A stretch of 64,000 nt of DNA from Ferrimonas balearica DSM 9799 (lineage in GTDB: Bacteria > Pseudomonadota > Gammaproteobacteria > Enterobacterales > Shewanellaceae). Location of the stretch: the NCBI RefSeq assembly GCF_000148645.1, contig NC_014541.1:1612001-1676000 (forward strand), read 5' to 3'. Below the pieces are notes generated by a model. The model made no database searches and was not told the DNA's origin. It worked only from the letters and a program-made list of their open reading frames with translations. This document shows, piece after piece, positions 36,633 to 42,815 of the stretch. Within the stretch, counting starts at the first letter, position 1; each line of letters opens with the position of its first letter. A program made the translations under genes and the position numbers.

Positions 36633-37103
36633 TCAGCTTTTAAAGCCGCTGTCCGGCAACAGCTTGTCCCCCCCGGCCGCGGTGCGGGCCAGTTCATCGC
36701 AACGTTCGTTGTTCGGGTCACCGGCGTGGCCTTTCACCCAGTGCCAGTCAATCTCGTGACGGGCCACCTGTGCATCCAGTGCCTGCCAAAGGTCGACATT
36801 TTTCACCGGCTCTTTGGCGGCGGTTTTCCAACCGTTGCGCTTCCAGCCGTGGATCCACTGGGTTATGCCCTGGCGCAGGTACTGGCTGTCGGTGTACAGC
36901 GACACTTGGCAGGGTTCGGTCAGCAACGCCAGGCCCTGGAGGGCGGCCATCATCTCCATCCGGTTGTTGGTGGTGTGCTGGTATCCGTAACCAACTTCCT
37001 TGCGATGACGCTTGTAGATAAGGACAATGCCGTACCCGCCGGGGCCGGGATTGCCCAGGCAACTGCCATCGGTGTAAAGCGTTACGCGTTTTTTCTCTGC
37101 CAT
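36633..37103 (-). CDS. rnhA: Ribonuclease HI
   Basis: 156 aa; degrades the RNA strand of RNA-DNA hybrids. All catalytic residues are present: D12 (Y-T-D-G-S), E50 (R-M-E-M-M-A), D72 (T-D-S-Q-Y) and D136 (R-C-D-E-L-A), with H126 in the mobile loop (K-G-H-A-G). The basic protrusion ([11 protein letters not shown]) is as in E. coli. It is divergent from dnaQ with about 80 bases between starts, the classical arrangement. Confidence 0.97.
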
Positions 37104-37185
37104 GCCCTTGCTACCATAACCAGCAAAGCGACCCTACTGGCCGCGAAAGCCGGACAGTATACCCATTTGTCTTGTCGGAAAAACT

Positions 37186-37908
37186 ATGACTCAAGCTGCT
37201 GATCTGCGACAGATCGTGTTCGATACCGAAACCACTGGTATGAATCAGGGCGCCGGCCCTCACTACCTTGGCCACAAGCTGATTGAGATTGGCTGCGTTG
37301 AACTGATCAATCGTAAGCCCACCGGCCGCACCTATCACGTCTACATCCAGCCGGACCGCCCGGTGGATGAAGAGGCGATTCAGGTGCACGGCATCACCGA
37401 TGAGTTTCTGGTCGGTAAGCCCCGTTTTGGGGAGATCGCCGAAGAGTTTTTCGAGTTCATTCGCGGCGCAGAGCTGATCGCACACAACGCGAACTTCGAT
37501 ATCGGCTTTATCGACTACGAGTTCGAGATGCTGGGCCGTTTTGGCAAGCTAGAAGACCACTGCAGCCTGGTGGACACCCTGCAACTGGCCCGGGAGAAGA
37601 AAAACCGCGGCGAGATCCAGGGCAACCTCAACCTGGATGCCTTGTGTCGTTTCTACGGCATCGACAACTCCCATCGTACCCTTCACGGCGCATTGTTGGA
37701 TGCCGAGATCCTGGCGGACGTGTTCCTCTACATGACCGGTGGCCAGGTGAAGATGAACTTTGGCTCCGGTGACGGGGATGCCGGCGGCATTATCCGCCTG
37801 CCCGAAGATCGTCGTCGCACTAAAGTCGTGCTCGCTACGGCCGATGAACTGGACAACCACACTAAGCGCATGGAGCTGGTTTCAGATGCCATTTGGCTGC
37901 GCCACTGA
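37186..37908 (+). CDS. dnaQ: DNA polymerase III epsilon subunit (proofreading exonuclease)
   Basis: 240 aa. DnaQ is the 3'-5' proofreading exonuclease of the Pol III core. DEDDh residues are complete: D13 and E15 (F-D-T-E-T-T-G), D105 (N-A-N-F-D-I-G), H167 and D172 (L-H-G-A-L-L-D-A-E). The C-terminal tail (about 190-240) after a glycine-rich linker is the part that binds the alpha subunit. It is divergent from rnhA and followed seven bases later by a TIGR03503-like gene. Confidence 0.96.
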   Translation: MTQAADLRQIVFDTETTGMNQGAGPHYLGHKLIEIGCVELINRKPTGRTYHVYIQPDRPVDEEAIQVHGITDEFLVGKPRFGEIAEEFFEFIRGAELIAHNANFDIGFIDYEFEMLGRFGKLEDHCSLVDTLQLAREKKNRGEIQGNLNLDALCRFYGIDNSHRTLHGALLDAEILADVFLYMTGGQVKMNFGSGDGDAGGIIRLPEDRRRTKVVLATADELDNHTKRMELVSDAIWLRH

Positions 37909-37915
37909 ACGACCG

Positions 37916-39199
37916 ATGTCTCGCCTTATCAGGGCGTTTGGATTGACCGGATGGTTGGCTCTGTTCGCGTTTAGCGCTCAGGCGGAGCTGACCCCGCAAA
38001 CCACCGAGTTACTGGATAACCGCTTTCGCATCGACCACGCGATTGACCAGATCACCATCCTGGCTCAGCGCGCGCCGGGCAGTGCCCCCGTGGTCGTGGT
38101 GAAGCCGGATGGCAGCAAATGGTATGCCCACCGTCACCCTGACAGCGTCACCTGGAACGCCACCCAAAGCAGCGACCTTATCCGCATCAACAACCCCACT
38201 CCCGGCCCGTGGCAGCTGGTTGGGGAGGTGGTGGATGGCTCTGAACTGCGGCTGATGAGTGAAGTGGCGCTGCGCCATGACCCGTTGCCGGAGCGGGTCT
38301 ATCGCGGTGAGCGGGTAAAGCTGACCGCAGAGCTGCTGGGAGATGACGATCGCATCGTCATGCGTGACTTTGAGGCTCAGCTGGACTGGAGCATGAGCAT
38401 CCGCAGCGCCAATCGCCCCGGCGATGAAAACTTCGGCGCCGGCCCCTTTATGATCGGCGCCTACCACGACGGTGGCAAAGGTCTGGATGAGGTGCCCCAC
38501 GATGGCATCTTCACCTCCAATCTCGACTTCAACTACCCGGCGGGCCTCTATCGCTACAAGATGGCGGTCAGTAATGAGGTGTTCCACCGTGAACTGACCG
38601 GGGAGATCGAGATTCTCCCGCAACCGGTGCGCATCGCTCTGGTGGAACTGCCCAGCGGCGAAACCAACCACTCTGAACTGACCATTACCCTCGAGCCGGA
38701 CGTGACGCCGGAGAACCTTCATCTGGACCTCGCCATTGAAACCCCGGACCAGAGTCGCTATCAGCTGTCGATAACACCGACTGAGCCGGTGCAGCAGATG
38801 CCGCTGCCCATGGTCAGTGCCTATGGCAACTACCGCATTGAGGGGGAGGCCGCTGGCACCCGCTACGACGGGGTCGAGTTTTTCCTGTCGTTGCCGGAGC
38901 TGGCGTTCTACGTCGCTCCGCCACCGCCGCCGCCGCTCTCCGCAGAGGAGATGGCCGCCATTGCCCTGCGCGAAGCCCAGGAGCGCGAAGCCAGTGCCCG
39001 AACCCGGGTGATCTGGACGGTGGGGGCGGTCAATATTCTTCTGCTGGTGGTGGGGGCTGCCATCCTGATTGTCTGGCGTAAACGTCAGCGCCTCTATCAG
39101 GAGTTGATGGCGATGCCGATCGAGCCTCAGGAACTGACGCCGGATCAGGTTGACCTGACCCAGTTTAGCCCGGACGACGGGGCCGGAACCCAGCGATAA
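37916..39199 (+). CDS. TIGR03503-type envelope protein
   Basis: 427 aa from ATG 37916, seven bases after dnaQ; the frame extends upstream only as overlap with dnaQ. A signal peptide (A-F-S-A-Q-A, cleavage near 23) is followed by a large beta-rich periplasmic region, a proline run (A-P-P-P-P-P-P) near 340 and a single membrane segment (about 365-385), leaving a charged cytosolic tail. The layout matches the uncharacterised family TIGR03503 of Shewanella and Vibrio relatives. It lies in one direction with dnaQ and just upstream of the tRNA-Asp array. Confidence 0.82.
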   Translation: MSRLIRAFGLTGWLALFAFSAQAELTPQTTELLDNRFRIDHAIDQITILAQRAPGSAPVVVVKPDGSKWYAHRHPDSVTWNATQSSDLIRINNPTPGPWQLVGEVVDGSELRLMSEVALRHDPLPERVYRGERVKLTAELLGDDDRIVMRDFEAQLDWSMSIRSANRPGDENFGAGPFMIGAYHDGGKGLDEVPHDGIFTSNLDFNYPAGLYRYKMAVSNEVFHRELTGEIEILPQPVRIALVELPSGETNHSELTITLEPDVTPENLHLDLAIETPDQSRYQLSITPTEPVQQMPLPMVSAYGNYRIEGEAAGTRYDGVEFFLSLPELAFYVAPPPPPPLSAEEMAAIALREAQEREASARTRVIWTVGAVNILLLVVGAAILIVWRKRQRLYQELMAMPIEPQELTPDQVDLTQFSPDDGAGTQR

Positions 39200-39263
39200 C
39201 AATTGCCTTTTTAGGGGTTTGGCGAAACTTTGTCTATTCAGACCATGTTTTTATAAAAATCGG

Positions 39264-39292
39264 TTGACGCTATCAGGCCCCGTCCGTAATAT
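39264..39292 (+). promoter_or_regulatory. Sigma-70 promoter of the tRNA-Asp cluster
   Basis: TTGACG (39264-39269), 17-base spacer, TAATAT (39287-39292), followed by a GC-rich GCGCC discriminator as in stringently controlled stable-RNA promoters. Start of transcription would fall near 39299, about 35 bases before the first tRNA. Confidence 0.8.
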
Positions 39293-39334
39293 GCGCCTCG
39301 TTCTCGGGGCCAAGGGCAACGGGGGCGATAGCGC

Positions 39335-39411
39335 GGAGTGGTAGTTCAGTTGGTTAGAATACCGGCCTGTCACGCCGGGGGTCGCGGGTTCGAGTCCCGT
39401 CCACTCCGCCA
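39335..39411 (+). tRNA. tRNA-Asp (GTC), copy 1
   Basis: 77 bases with CCA encoded. The seven-base acceptor stem GGAGTGG/CCACTCC closes; anticodon loop CTGTCAC carries GTC; T-arm GGGTTCGAGTCCC is intact. It is very similar to E. coli tRNA-Asp. Confidence 0.97.
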
Positions 39412-39468
39412 TTAATTTGCGACTTCTGATGTTTTCGGGAGTCAGGCGAGAGCAGCGCAAGCGCTGCG

Positions 39469-39514
39469 GGGTCGCGGCCGAAGCTCGGCGCGTTGAGTCC
39501 CGTCCACTCCGCCA
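39469..39514 (+). pseudogene. tRNA-Asp 3'-end remnant 1
   Basis: GGGGTCGCGG, then a foreign insert of about 14 bases, then GTTGAGTCCCGTCCACTCC GCCA. This is the T-arm and acceptor end of tRNA-Asp with an interrupted variable/T-arm and no 5' half, so it cannot fold as a tRNA. Confidence 0.75.
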
Positions 39515-39586
39515 TTAATTTATGCTCCTCGGAGCAACAGGGCATCGGAATCGCAACCCGGTGAGCTGTCTAAACCAGTTTGGTGC

Positions 39587-39663
39587 GGAGTGGTAGTTCA
39601 GTTGGTTAGAATACCGGCCTGTCACGCCGGGGGTCGCGGGTTCGAGTCCCGTCCACTCCGCCA
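39587..39663 (+). tRNA. tRNA-Asp (GTC), copy 2
   Basis: Identical to copy 1 over all 77 bases; starts exactly 252 bases after it. Confidence 0.97.
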
Positions 39664-39720
39664 TTAATTTGCGACTTCTGATGATTTCGGGAGTCAGGCG
39701 AGAGCAGCGCAAGCGCTGCG

Positions 39721-39766
39721 GGGTCGCGGCCGAAGCTCGGCGCGTTGAGTCCCGTCCACTCCGCCA
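39721..39766 (+). pseudogene. tRNA-Asp 3'-end remnant 2
   Basis: Same structure as remnant 1 (GGGTCGCGG, insert, GTTGAGTCCCG and acceptor end), 252 bases further on. It shows that tRNA, spacer and remnant were duplicated together. Confidence 0.75.
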
Positions 39767-39838
39767 TTAATTTGCGCTCTTAGGAGCAACAGGGCATCGG
39801 AATCGCAACCCGGTGAGCTGTCTAAACCAGTTTAGTGC

Positions 39839-39915
39839 GGAGTGGTAGTTCAGTTGGTTAGAATACCGGCCTGTCACGCCGGGGGTCGCGGGTTCGAGTC
39901 CCGTCCACTCCGCCA
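39839..39915 (+). tRNA. tRNA-Asp (GTC), copy 3
   Basis: Identical to copies 1 and 2; again 252 bases after the previous one. Confidence 0.97.
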
Positions 39916-39987
39916 TTAATTTGCGCTCTTAGGAGCAACAGGGCATCGGAATCGCATCCCGATGAGCTGTCTAAACCAGTTTAGTGC

Positions 39988-40064
39988 GGAGTGGTAGTTC
40001 AGTTGGTTAGAATACCGGCCTGTCACGCCGGGGGTCGCGGGTTCGAGTCCCGTCCACTCCGCCA
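39988..40064 (+). tRNA. tRNA-Asp (GTC), copy 4
   Basis: Identical 77 bases, but only 149 bases after copy 3: the spacer lacks the 103-base segment with the remnant. Its 3' end opens the first unit of the 181-bp tandem array. Confidence 0.97.
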
Positions 40065-41250
40065 TCTTTACGAGAAGCCTGTCCCGAAAGGGACAGGCTT
40101 TTTTGTGCTTGGAGCGCGGACGGTTCAGTGTTGCGTGATAGCGAGGTACCACAACCCATCCCTGGTGCCCCCCTCCGCTCGGCATCCCTGCCTCGCGCTC
40201 AAGTACTGCGTTGCTGCGCAACGGTCACTTTCGCCCACTCCGCCATCTTTACAAGAAGCCTGTCCCGAAAGGGACAGGCTTTTTTGTGCTTGGAGCGCGG
40301 ACGGTTCAGTGTTGCGTGATAGGGAGGTACCACAACCCATCCCTGGTGCCCCCCTCCGCTCGGCATCCCTGCCTCGCGCTCAAGTACTGCGTTGCTGCGC
40401 AACGGTCACTTTCGCCCACGCCGCCATCTTTACGAGAAGCCTGTCCCGAAAGGGACAGGCTTTTTTGTGCTTGGAGCGCGGACGGTTCAGTGTTTCGTGA
40501 TAGCGAGGTACCACAACCCATCCCTGGTGCCCCCCTCCGCTCGGTATCCCTGCCTCGCGCTCAAGTACTGCGTTGCTGCGCAACGGTCACTTTCGCCCAC
40601 TCCGCCATCTTTACAAGAAGCCTGTCCCGAAGGGGACAGGCTTCTTTGTGCTTGGAGCGCGGACGGTTCAGTGTTGCGTGATAGGGACGTACCACAACCC
40701 ATCCCTGGTGCACCCCTCCGCTCGGCATCCCTGCCTCGCGCTCAAGTACTGCGTTGCTGCGCAACGGTCACTTTCGCCCACGCCGCCATCTTTACAAGAA
40801 GCCTGTCCCGAAAGGGACAGGCTTTTTTGTGCTTGGAGCGCGGACGGTTCAGTGTTTCGTGATAGCGAGGTACCACAACCCATCCTTGGTGCCCCCTTCC
40901 GCTCGGCATCCCTGCCTCGCGCTCAAGTACTGCGTTGCTGCGCAACGGTCACTTTCGCCCACTCCGCCATCTTTACAAGAAGCCTGTCCCGAAGGGGACA
41001 GGCTTCTTTGTGCTTGGAGCGCGGACGGTTCAGTGTTGCGTGATAGGGACGTACCACAACCCATCCCTGGTGCACCCCTCCGCTCGGCATCCCTGCCTCG
41101 CGCTCAAGTACTGCGTTGCTGCGCAACGGTCACTTTCGCCCGCGCCGCCATCTTTACAAGAAGCCTGTTCCGAAAGGGACGGGCTTTTTGTGCTTGGAGC
41201 GCGGACGGTTCAGTGTTTCGTGATAGCGAGGTACCACAACCCATCCCTGT
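40054..41250 (+). repeat. Seven-copy 181-bp tandem array built on the tRNA-Asp 3' end
   Basis: Units begin at 40054 (inside tRNA copy 4), 40235, 40416, 40597, 40778, 40959 and 41140, exactly 181 bases apart. Each starts with the tRNA-Asp end CCACTCCGCCA or a one- or two-base variant, then a hairpin terminator (AAGCCTGTCCC-GAAA-GGGACAGGCTT), then about 130 conserved bases. Units alternate in small differences (GTTGCGTGATAGGGA versus GTTTCGTGATAGCGA; the CACGCC and CACTCC junctions), and units 4 and 6 are alike, so a 362-bp dimer was duplicated. The last copy is degenerate. Long open frames over the array shift with each unit and are not credible genes. Confidence 0.93.
40075..40104 (+). terminator. 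Terminator of the tRNA-Asp cluster (first of seven)
   Basis: AAGCCTGTCCC-GAAA-GGGACAGGCTT plus four further T, 11 bases after tRNA copy 4. The same hairpin recurs at about 40256, 40437, 40618, 40799, 40980 and 41161; in the units at 40618 and 40980 the T-run is interrupted by C, which should weaken it. Confidence 0.9.
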
Positions 41251-41352
41251 GGGATCCCTCCTGTCGGCATCCTTGTCTCTACCTCACCGAACTGCGATGC
41301 GTTGCATTGGTTCCGGTTCGCCCCCTGTGGGATCCCTCCCGTCGGCATCCCT
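41245..41352 (+). repeat. Short direct repeat beyond the array
   Basis: CCCTGTGGGATCCCTCCTGT (41245 region) and CCCTGTGGGATCCCTCCCGT (41322 region), each followed by CGGCATCC, are about 77 bases apart. The segment resembles the middle of the 181-bp unit, so it looks like decayed array. Confidence 0.6.
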
Positions 41353-41540
41353 GCCTTCACCTCGCCGGAAGGCGGTAGCTTGCATCAGTAAGTGGCTCTG
41401 GCTGCTCTGGCCGGAAAATTTCCCGACAGATCGAGTTGATATGGCCGCTGTTGTGACTAAGGTTTAGAGCGGACCCAAGGCCGTAACGGGGGACCATACC
41501 AGCGCAGAAGCGCTGCGATCAGACCATATGGAGGTGGTCA

Positions 41541-42815
41541 ATGAAGGTGAGGGCCAAGGTCACCATCTTATTTTCGTTTTTGCTCACCGCAGCAATTGCC
41601 AACACCTACTTTATCTTCGCGCTGGATCAGCAAGGCGAGGAGAAGCGGCGTAGGGTGGCCCATACCCATGAGGTGATTCTCGAATCGGAACGCCTGTTGG
41701 GGCACCTTGTTGATGCGGAAACCGGCCAGCGTGGCTACCTGCTCACCGCGAATGCGGCCTACCTGGCTCCCTACCATCGAGCCCTGAGCGCCATCTCCAC
41801 CAAACAGAATCGGCTGAGTTTCCTCACCGCAAAGGATCCACAGCAGCAGGCGCTATTGCGGCAGATTGACCGCAGCATAGCCCTCCAGCTGCAGGAGCTG
41901 AAGGCCACTATCGAGCTCAATGCTGCCGGTGAGCAGACCATCGCCATGAAGGTGATGTCGTTAAATCAGGGCAAATACTTTATGGACGACATTCGCCGCC
42001 AGATGCGCCGCTTTGCCAGCCACGAGCGGGAACAGTTGGCGCTGCATCAGGGCGAATTCAACCAGTACCGGGTGGAGATTAAGACCCTGATCTACGCCGA
42101 GTTCGTGTTCTTTATCTGTCTGGCGCTATTCACCTTTTTCTTTCTGCGCAACAGCCTGTTCTCGCGCCTGTCGGTGTTGTTGAACAGCGTTGAGAAGATC
42201 AAAGACGGCAAGGTCGTCAGTCAGGCGGAGTTGCAGTCAAACGATGAGATCAGCCTGCTGATGGATGCCTTTGTGGACCTCAGCTATCGGGTGAACCAGC
42301 GTGAGCGGGTGCTGGAGTTTAAGGCCCATCACGATGAGCTGACCGGTTTGAAGAATCGACTGGCGCTGCGGGAGGATCTCGAAACGGCGCTGGAGCAACT
42401 GAAGCAGGACAAACTGGCGTTGCTCTTTATTGACGTCAATGGACTTAAAAGCCTGAACGACAGCAAAGGTCACGATTATGGTGATGCCTTGCTGTGTGAA
42501 ACCGCCTGTCGCCTGCAGGCCAGCGTCCGGGACACCGACGTGGTTTATCGCATCGGCGGTGACGAGTTTATCGTCCTGTTGAAACACATTAAGGCGGTGT
42601 CGGACGTCGACCGTGTGCTGAGCAAGATGCACCGCAGCTTTATCAAACCCATGACCTACAACGGTGCCATCGTGCCCCTGTCCGCCAGTGTGGGCATTGC
42701 CATTGCCCCGGACGATGCCGCCACCGCTGAAGCGCTGATCACCTTTTCTGATAGCGCGATGTATCACGCCAAGCTCAGCGGCAATGCGGGATTCCGCTAT
42801 CACCGGCCCTCTTAG
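41541..42815 (+). CDS. Diguanylate cyclase with CHASE3-like periplasmic sensor
   Basis: 424 aa; makes cyclic di-GMP from two GTP. An N-terminal membrane segment (about 7-27) and a second one (about 183-203) bracket a helical periplasmic domain with the D-A-E-T-G-Q-R-G-Y-L-L-T motif of CHASE3 sensors. A HAMP-like linker follows, then the GGDEF domain (about 260-420) with an intact G-G-D-E-F at 339-343 and an inhibitory I-site R-x-x-D at 330-333, so the enzyme should be active and product-inhibited. GGAGGTGG precedes the ATG. It stands alone after the repeat array. Confidence 0.92.
   Translation: MKVRAKVTILFSFLLTAAIANTYFIFALDQQGEEKRRRVAHTHEVILESERLLGHLVDAETGQRGYLLTANAAYLAPYHRALSAISTKQNRLSFLTAKDPQQQALLRQIDRSIALQLQELKATIELNAAGEQTIAMKVMSLNQGKYFMDDIRRQMRRFASHEREQLALHQGEFNQYRVEIKTLIYAEFVFFICLALFTFFFLRNSLFSRLSVLLNSVEKIKDGKVVSQAELQSNDEISLLMDAFVDLSYRVNQRERVLEFKAHHDELTGLKNRLALREDLETALEQLKQDKLALLFIDVNGLKSLNDSKGHDYGDALLCETACRLQASVRDTDVVYRIGGDEFIVLLKHIKAVSDVDRVLSKMHRSFIKPMTYNGAIVPLSASVGIAIAPDDAATAEALITFSDSAMYHAKLSGNAGFRYHRPS

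Follow-up and report, generated by a model that had tools for sequence, protein, structure and literature searches.

A 181-bp tandem array behind the tRNA-Asp genes of Ferrimonas balearica: probable remains of decayed tRNA-Asp copies, joined by a structured element, R1

A tandem array of 181-bp units follows immediately on four tRNA-Asp genes in Ferrimonas balearica DSM 9799, within the window analyzed here (64,000 nucleotides of contig NC_014541.1, from position 1,612,001). The array occupies window positions 40054-41250, comprises six full units and a partial seventh, and is confirmed as a feature of the assembled sequence. Its most probable origin is a row of tandem "tRNA-Asp + terminator" copies that decayed, were invaded by a separate structured element (here termed R1) and were then amplified; the row would now provide serial transcription stops and, on read-through, RNAs resembling those of the E. 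coli rtT repeats. No earlier report of the array or of R1 was found in the open-access literature searched. The features of the region are as follows.

39264..39292, plus strand: sigma-70-like promoter upstream of the first tRNA-Asp (9/12 matches)
39335..39411, plus strand: tRNA-Asp (GTC), copy 1
39488..39514, plus strand: repeat of the tRNA-Asp 3' end (tRNA positions 50-77), lying between tRNA copies 1 and 2
39587..39663, plus strand: tRNA-Asp, copy 2
39740..39766, plus strand: repeat of the tRNA-Asp 3' end, lying between tRNA copies 2 and 3
39839..39915, plus strand: tRNA-Asp, copy 3
39988..40064, plus strand: tRNA-Asp, copy 4, whose final 11 bases open unit 1
40054..40234, plus strand: unit 1 (terminator stem 40078-40097; R1 at 40153-40236, minus strand)
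40235..40415, plus strand: unit 2 (terminator stem 40259-40278; R1 at 40334-40417, minus strand)
40416..40596, plus strand: unit 3 (terminator stem 40440-40459; R1 at 40515-40598, minus strand)
40597..40777, plus strand: unit 4, equal to unit 6 (terminator stem 40621-40640; R1 at 40696-40779, minus strand)
40778..40958, plus strand: unit 5 (terminator stem 40802-40821; R1 at 40877-40960, minus strand)
40959..41139, plus strand: unit 6, equal to unit 4 (terminator stem 40983-41002; R1 at 41058-41141, minus strand)
41140..41250, plus strand: unit 7, partial (terminator stem 41164-41183)
41238..41323, minus strand: R1 module closing the array, of another subtype, nearer to the R1 of the other two tRNA-Asp loci
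41326..41407, minus strand: further R1 module, weak and decayed (25.6 bits, E 0.04)

The seven unit starts are spaced exactly 181 bp apart, and TRF gives a period of 181 with 6.6 copies and 95% match, in agreement with the initial annotation, which had described seven units opening with the last 11 bases of tRNA-Asp or a near copy; unit 7 is incomplete, running one base out of register after about 41187 and losing its likeness at about 41250. The opening 11 bases are CCACTCCGCCA in units 1, 2, 4 and 6, CCACGCCGCCA in units 3 and 5, and CCGCGCCGCCA in unit 7. Two more copies of the tRNA-Asp 3' end, absent from the initial annotation, sit between the tRNA-Asp genes. Across units 1-6 variation is confined to 11 of the 181 columns, and its distribution follows the proposed 362-bp dimers: mismatch is 3.76% at a lag of 181, 1.52% at 362, 3.68% at 543 and 2.49% at 724, so that the value at 362 is under half of those at 181 and 543. 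The longest exact repeat at lag 362 measures 234 nt, and units 4 and 6, previously said to look alike, are identical over all 181 bp. The description of variants alternating from unit to unit is correct from unit 2 onward; strict alternation begins there because unit 1 is mixed, combining GTTGCG with AGCGA.

A terminator had been assigned to each unit, and a scan written for this analysis does find a terminator-like hairpin followed by a T run on the plus strand in 7/7 units (0.34 per mononucleotide-shuffled region), while also passing four on the minus strand. A standard terminator scan that applies a different rule reports none in the region against 3.4 expected; this zero, we think, comes about because that rule allows T-run bases to be counted in the stem. 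The promoter-like site ahead of the first tRNA-Asp is the sole one on either strand of 39200-41560, a single count that is within chance (0.4 expected by shuffling), and the same scan shows no sign of a promoter belonging to the array itself. Protein coding by the array was considered and rejected: the period is not divisible by three, and long frames that cross units are by-products. The antisense ORFs over the tRNA genes, too, are presumably spurious frames.

The origin proposed here draws on the relatives. Behind tRNA-Asp genes of congener G001 are tandem tRNA-Asp pseudogenes of 209 bp x 2.9 and 220 bp x 4.9, and behind a tRNA-Asp gene of G011 similar pseudogenes of 176 bp x 3.2; single tRNA-Asp pseudogenes occur in G010 and at a third locus of G001. 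They retain anticodon arms and D-arm remnants and contain small inserts beside the D-arm, some also in the T-loop, and their units open with the tRNA end and a terminator as do those of the present array. R1 matches are lacking in G001, G011 and G010. The junction found in F. balearica is of a kind seen in G264 (of genus g2), whose tRNA-Asp pseudogenes hold R1 between CGTCC and GCCA. Because the congener arrays are tRNA-Asp pseudogenes with terminators, the 11 bases are best read as the remnant of whole tRNA copies; the earlier suggestion that the array was seeded by the 3' end of tRNA-Asp is thereby upheld as to the tRNA link, and not as to a mere seed. These congener forms suggest more widely that arrays of this sort are formed as tandem tRNA genes decay.

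The array would then be a row of strongly decayed copies of a tRNA-Asp gene with its intrinsic terminator, ending a four-gene operon, as the relatives display and as may be supposed here. In each copy the tRNA body would have been lost or overwritten, and three parts would be left: the acceptor/CCA end, the terminator and an R1 insert that meets the tRNA 3' end with one of its own ends. The 181-bp unit would then have been multiplied by unequal recombination, in part as 362-bp dimers; the pattern itself is plain, and the mechanism is the likely one behind it. Laboratory work has observed bacterial tRNA gene copies arising by tandem duplication, although the duplicated segments there measured 45-290 kb (PMC7661048). 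In the tRNA-Asp operon, transcription would normally stop at terminator 1, the later terminators serving as serial fail-safe stops; rare read-through transcripts would carry CCA-ending units, as in E. coli rtT, and tRNA-processing enzymes may release these units as small RNAs. R1 is a separate structured element, which in relatives lies at duplicated tRNA ends and in one case follows the remains of a 5S rRNA copy.

Several observations bear on how far this scheme can be carried. In 7/7 units a tRNA 3' end is followed by a trailer and a terminator of its own, while none has a recognizable tRNA body. Anticodon arms are present in L355-L359 and L286 and number zero in the present array. Descent from whole tRNA copies rests on the relatives because no tRNA body is detectable here, and we infer that the array represents a late stage of tRNA copy decay. 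The stretch that follows the terminator has no significant likeness to the tRNA 5' half (p 0.21-0.26), and compared with the inverted tRNA 3' arm it gives p of about 0.65; likeness to the inverted arm appears in 9/20 other array units at p < 0.05 (mononucleotide shuffles, uncorrected). Global alignment with unit 2 gives 49.5-77.0% identity for six units from other species or loci. The dnaQ-tRNA-Asp locus is common to 8 of 14 genomes (G000, which is F. balearica, G001, G003, G004, G006, G007, G010 and G011). The proposed count of copies per genome at this locus yields 6.6 in F. balearica, two in G007 (188 and 181 bp) and none in G001 and G011, with G010 reading N. The pseudogene arrays of G001 and G011 thus sit at tRNA-Asp loci other than the dnaQ one, which counts against the proposed descent. 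It also counts against serial termination that the later units would be transcribed rarely, and R1 is antisense to the tRNA, an orientation that an RNA role within the tRNA transcript would not predict.

A mirror image of these 3'-end arrays exists in G010, where at L133 the intact tRNA-Ser(GGA) gene is preceded by three hairpin-bearing repeats, spaced about 125 bp apart and each made of the leader and the opening 21 nt of the tRNA.

The array is one of several tRNA-end repeats in its genome, the assembly of which is a single contig. A DNA search with one unit length (40065-40245) returns 18 matches, all at four tRNA loci: the present array, two further tRNA-Asp genes (L019, L020), which by eye come after a 5S rRNA gene, and tRNA-Ser(TGA) (L021). 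With 35 further stretches around tRNA clusters, 39 stretches were examined in all; they include tRNA 3'-end repeats with other inserts behind tRNA-Pro(GGG) (two loci), Ser(GGA) and Met, and 26 occurrences of an 83-bp module, at 5 of the 39. A scan of genome contigs for a 16-mer from the junction gave scattered single matches among the matches listed. The E. coli tyrT rtT repeats have been known mainly as a single case, and it is of some consequence that the same arrangement stands in one genome behind Asp, Ser, Pro and Met tRNAs. The tRNA gene set of F. balearica is itself very large (120 Rfam matches; 121 by ARAGORN in the stretches taken), with long arrays of Lys x9 and Met(CAT) x9 and a 22-gene Glu/Val/Ala cluster.

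R1 was modeled from 17 copies as a covariance model of 86 positions, read on the strand opposite the tRNA. The element is 86 nt long, folds into three hairpins and has a consensus beginning GGGCGA; on the whole F. balearica genome the model has 26 matches up to E = 0.1 (best 150 of 2357 candidates scored), all at five tRNA loci. The statistics rest on 121 matches, 109 of them distinct, which come from 65 stretches in the own genus and others, overlapping duplicates being left out. Standard pairs fill 92.9% of pair cells compared with 66.3% after shuffling, 21 of 22 pairs are changed on both sides (20 of 22 on the first, smaller set), and the covariation score is 0.549 versus at most 0.064 for slid partners, figures that come from an alignment fitted to the model and so favor it. 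R1 is a real structured element with strong covariation. It is of interest that such an element is tied to tRNA ends in several families and matches no Rfam family at threshold in the stretches scanned; weak Thr_leader matches (E 0.14-0.7) overlap some units.

Among 60 relatives, the own genome included, 20 match R1 at E <= 0.001 (up to 74 candidates per genome scored): F. balearica, nine of 13 other species of its genus, nine of 13 of genus g2 and one from another family. In the order as a whole at least 19 of 394 genomes match at E <= 1e-4 (11 candidates per genome scored), from five families including its own. Within the genus, 64 of 76 copies in the stretches covered are downstream of a tRNA (Asp 56, Ser-TGA 8), 59-1174 nt away and on the opposite strand; 10 of the 76 are in stretches without an ARAGORN tRNA, and two are upstream of tRNA-Trp near contig edges. 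The ARAGORN-negative stretches are L124, behind 5S rRNA, and five others at contig edges. At L124 (G012; 1300-1680) a decayed 5S rRNA 3' end behind a terminator, recognized by eye, accompanies the R1 module, and 5S genes may therefore undergo the same process as tRNA genes.

Outside the genus the picture differs. Eleven of 45 copies are upstream of a tRNA by 21-31 nt, on the tRNA's own strand, and two more are upstream of tRNA-Ala, scored as downstream of a nearer tRNA-Glu; four lie downstream of a tRNA and on the other strand, and the remaining 28 are in stretches that contain no tRNA. The upstream copies come after a duplicated tRNA 5' end that reaches the D-loop GG, with Lys (six copies), Val, Arg, Met, Phe and Ala represented in three other families. 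In genus g2 most copies are away from tRNAs, and several lie within larger hairpins. The orientation of R1 toward the tRNA piece that it touches is constant on either side of the gene. These counts include tandem copies, and hence are not independent events, and they derive from a part of the loci in R1-matching genomes; the tRNA-linked share outside the genus was 17/33 on 51 stretches and is 17/45 on 65. A finding of the same array unlinked to tRNA genes had been named as grounds for discarding the tRNA connection; tested on R1, it yields the 64 tRNA-linked copies of 76 within the genus, and single copies away from tRNAs do occur in genus g2 and elsewhere, among the 28 with no tRNA in the stretch. 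R1 also occupies the last CRISPR repeat at L090 (genus g2, with Rfam support) and L283 (another family, by eye). In these two stretches R1 directly follows ..GCAGCTC(AG) / GCAGCTTAG, a sequence similar to the AGCTCAG motif of the tRNA D-arm.

This distribution is the ground for a rival reading in which R1 is a MITE-like mobile element that inserts after GG in the loops and ends of stable RNAs, the arrays being by-products formed with target duplication. We regard that reading as a serious candidate, at somewhat below even chances. It is favored by the presence of R1 in four other families of the order, by the duplicated 5' ends, by the CRISPR and 5S locations, and by a strand rule under which downstream copies are antisense (64 in the genus, 4 elsewhere) and upstream copies outside the genus are sense (11, plus the two at tRNA-Ala). 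Against it are the 28 copies outside the genus that have no tRNA in their stretch and the lack of a defined, consistent target-site duplication; within the genus, moreover, R1 is confined to tRNA/5S loci, which local amplification would equally produce. A broader form, offered tentatively, treats R1 as an undescribed family that inserts after GG at stable-RNA ends and loops and makes arrays of tRNA copies, RtT arrays being a parallel product. It would cover tRNAs, 5S rRNA and CRISPR repeats together with the placement of the R1 5' end against the tRNA piece. Were R1 insertion the true explanation, "tRNA-end repeat arrays" would be a general class across the order instead of an E. coli oddity.

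Descent from tRNA-Asp copies, the reading preferred here, must also be weighed against membership of the array in the RtT family proper (Rfam RF00391), in which case small RNAs would be cut from the tRNA-Asp transcript and act in amino-acid stress. This we consider rather unlikely. The layout is admittedly that of E. coli tyrT: tandem units directly behind a tRNA, each with the tRNA 3' end. In MG1655, behind tyrV, the repeats measure 178 bp x 3.1 with a 19-nt tRNA-Tyr end, values that support the initial annotation in naming E. coli tyrT/rtT as the closest known case, and RF00391 scores 133.8-137.5 bits (threshold 45) on the three E. coli units. In the genus the model stays below threshold, on the tRNA strand, at Ser-TGA units of G003 and G004 (24.3 and 23.7 bits) and at the Ser-GGA unit of F. 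balearica (22.3), with E values of 0.8-2.5 for 22 kb against all 4227 families. Of 295 genomes across the order, 68 have a match at E <= 0.01, with 42 over threshold, and 23 of 25 loci fetched (the best match per genome) have a same-strand tRNA upstream (Tyr 11, Ser-GGA 7, Pro-TGG 4, Ser-TGA 1). RtT RNAs of Actinobacillus are described upstream of tRNA-Asn and tRNA-Lys genes, and those of A. pleuropneumoniae are reported to give Northern signals (PMC4986893).

The Asp array itself, however, has no RF00391 match up to E = 1 in 39200-41540 and so falls short of the 45-bit threshold. When the family is searched alone on the whole genome, a single match appears up to E = 10, at the Ser-GGA unit (E 0.11), and none at the Asp array among the best 150 of 205 candidates scored; with E. 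coli set aside, 3 of 13 control genomes likewise have a match at this E = 10 cut. R1 compared with the E. coli rtT region reaches at best 4.8 bits, which is no match. A scan for an rtT-like stem plus TGAGAA passes no Asp unit; perfect 8-11 bp stems exist in the Ser-GGA and E. coli units, and the scan, which demands such a stem, also passed four unrelated stretches. In rough alignments with a poor 3' strand, three features are common to the Ser units and rtT: the tRNA T/acceptor arm in inverted copy, a hairpin that starts with UGAGAA, and the tRNA end. RttR is tabulated as having no effect in a screen of E. coli sRNAs (PMC4606813), and one survey includes rttR among REP-hosting sRNAs (PMC12306157). 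The array is filed as a variant of the rtT kind, outside the RtT family because it has no RtT match. The suggestion that it arose independently accordingly holds for the Asp array and is weakened by the Ser units, which match RtT weakly in the right place and on the right strand; that RtT itself lies behind several tRNA types also counts against a fully independent origin.

The protein CsrA prefers hairpin loops of the (N)GGA type, and a transcribed R1 might serve as a binding decoy for a CsrA-type protein, almost all of its loops being of this form. Hairpin 2 has a GGGA, TGGA, GGA or AGGA loop in 84 of 109 distinct copies, and hairpin 3 does in 93 of 109. On the R1 strand G-U cells exceed A-C cells by 71 to 25 (64 to 21 on 94 rows) when two loop-closing pairs are dropped, an exclusion chosen after the data had been seen; with all 22 pairs the ratio is 72 to 60 on 109 rows and 65 to 56 on 94. 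The G-U excess, visible at first in a few rows, was therefore set aside as proof of the transcribed strand, being weak and nearly vanishing with all pairs. Given further that R1 is antisense to the tRNA operon, that the minus strand of 39200-41560 shows no promoter-like site and that separate CsrB-like genes exist, such a decoy is improbable. The CsrB-like RNA matches, all below gathering score, are at G000:C1:1032402-1032692 and 1033041-1033316, which are neighbors, and at the distant 4212175-4212458.

Seven neighboring ORFs were compared with Pfam, giving RNase H, an exonuclease (DnaQ-like), CHASE3-GGDEF, a fumarase-like lyase, a methyltransferase and two unmatched. The tRNA-Asp operon (region 36633-42815) thus lies near RNase H and DnaQ-like genes; E. 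coli aspV is likewise near dnaQ. The CHASE3-GGDEF gene that follows the array is found at E <= 1e-60 only in F. balearica and one other of the 14 genomes in the genus. Since tRNA 3' ends are common integrase targets that are duplicated on integration, the array might be taken for island remnants left when elements integrated in tandem at a tRNA attachment site, a reading that is very improbable and was rejected: none of the seven ORFs matches an integrase, no plasmid or phage collection match was obtained at E <= 1e-5, the units are of 181 bp with a terminator each, and the congeners have tRNA pseudogenes instead. It is important to emphasize that R1 and the congener forms together make the origin of the array, and its possible RNA products, directly testable.

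Among known systems, the array most resembles the tyrT/tyrV rtT repeats (rttR; RF00391) of E. coli, which are also tandem repeats of about 180 bp behind a tRNA, each holding the tRNA 3' end. Both have a structured interior, with a tandem-GA motif seen by eye in R1 and reported for RtT (PMC7657543). They differ in the tRNA (Tyr versus Asp), in the core sequence, with no RtT match to the array, in the terminator-like hairpin present in every unit of F. balearica, and in copy number (6.6 versus 3.1). The RtT-type units behind Ser-GGA and Ser-TGA likewise carry pseudo-3' ends, scoring 22-24 bits with RF00391 in the genus and, behind Ser-GGA in other families, over threshold; their inverted T/acceptor arm and UGAGAA hairpin start were not found in the Asp units. 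REP or GTAG-tagged palindromes (on REP classes see PMC3733652 and PMC3686654) and other small dispersed repeats are like R1 short and hairpin-forming, and R1 is partly dispersed in genus g2, whereas R1 has 86 nt, three hairpins and frequent placement at tRNA ends, and its consensus, starting GGGCGA, has no GTAG or CGTC tag at the hairpin foot. The congener tRNA-Asp pseudogene arrays (L355-L357, with the single L358 and L359) share with the present array the tRNA-Asp site, a start of CCACTCCGCCA plus terminator and a similar period (176-220 bp against 181 bp), and differ from it in that their tRNA body is still recognizable and their genomes are without an R1 match.
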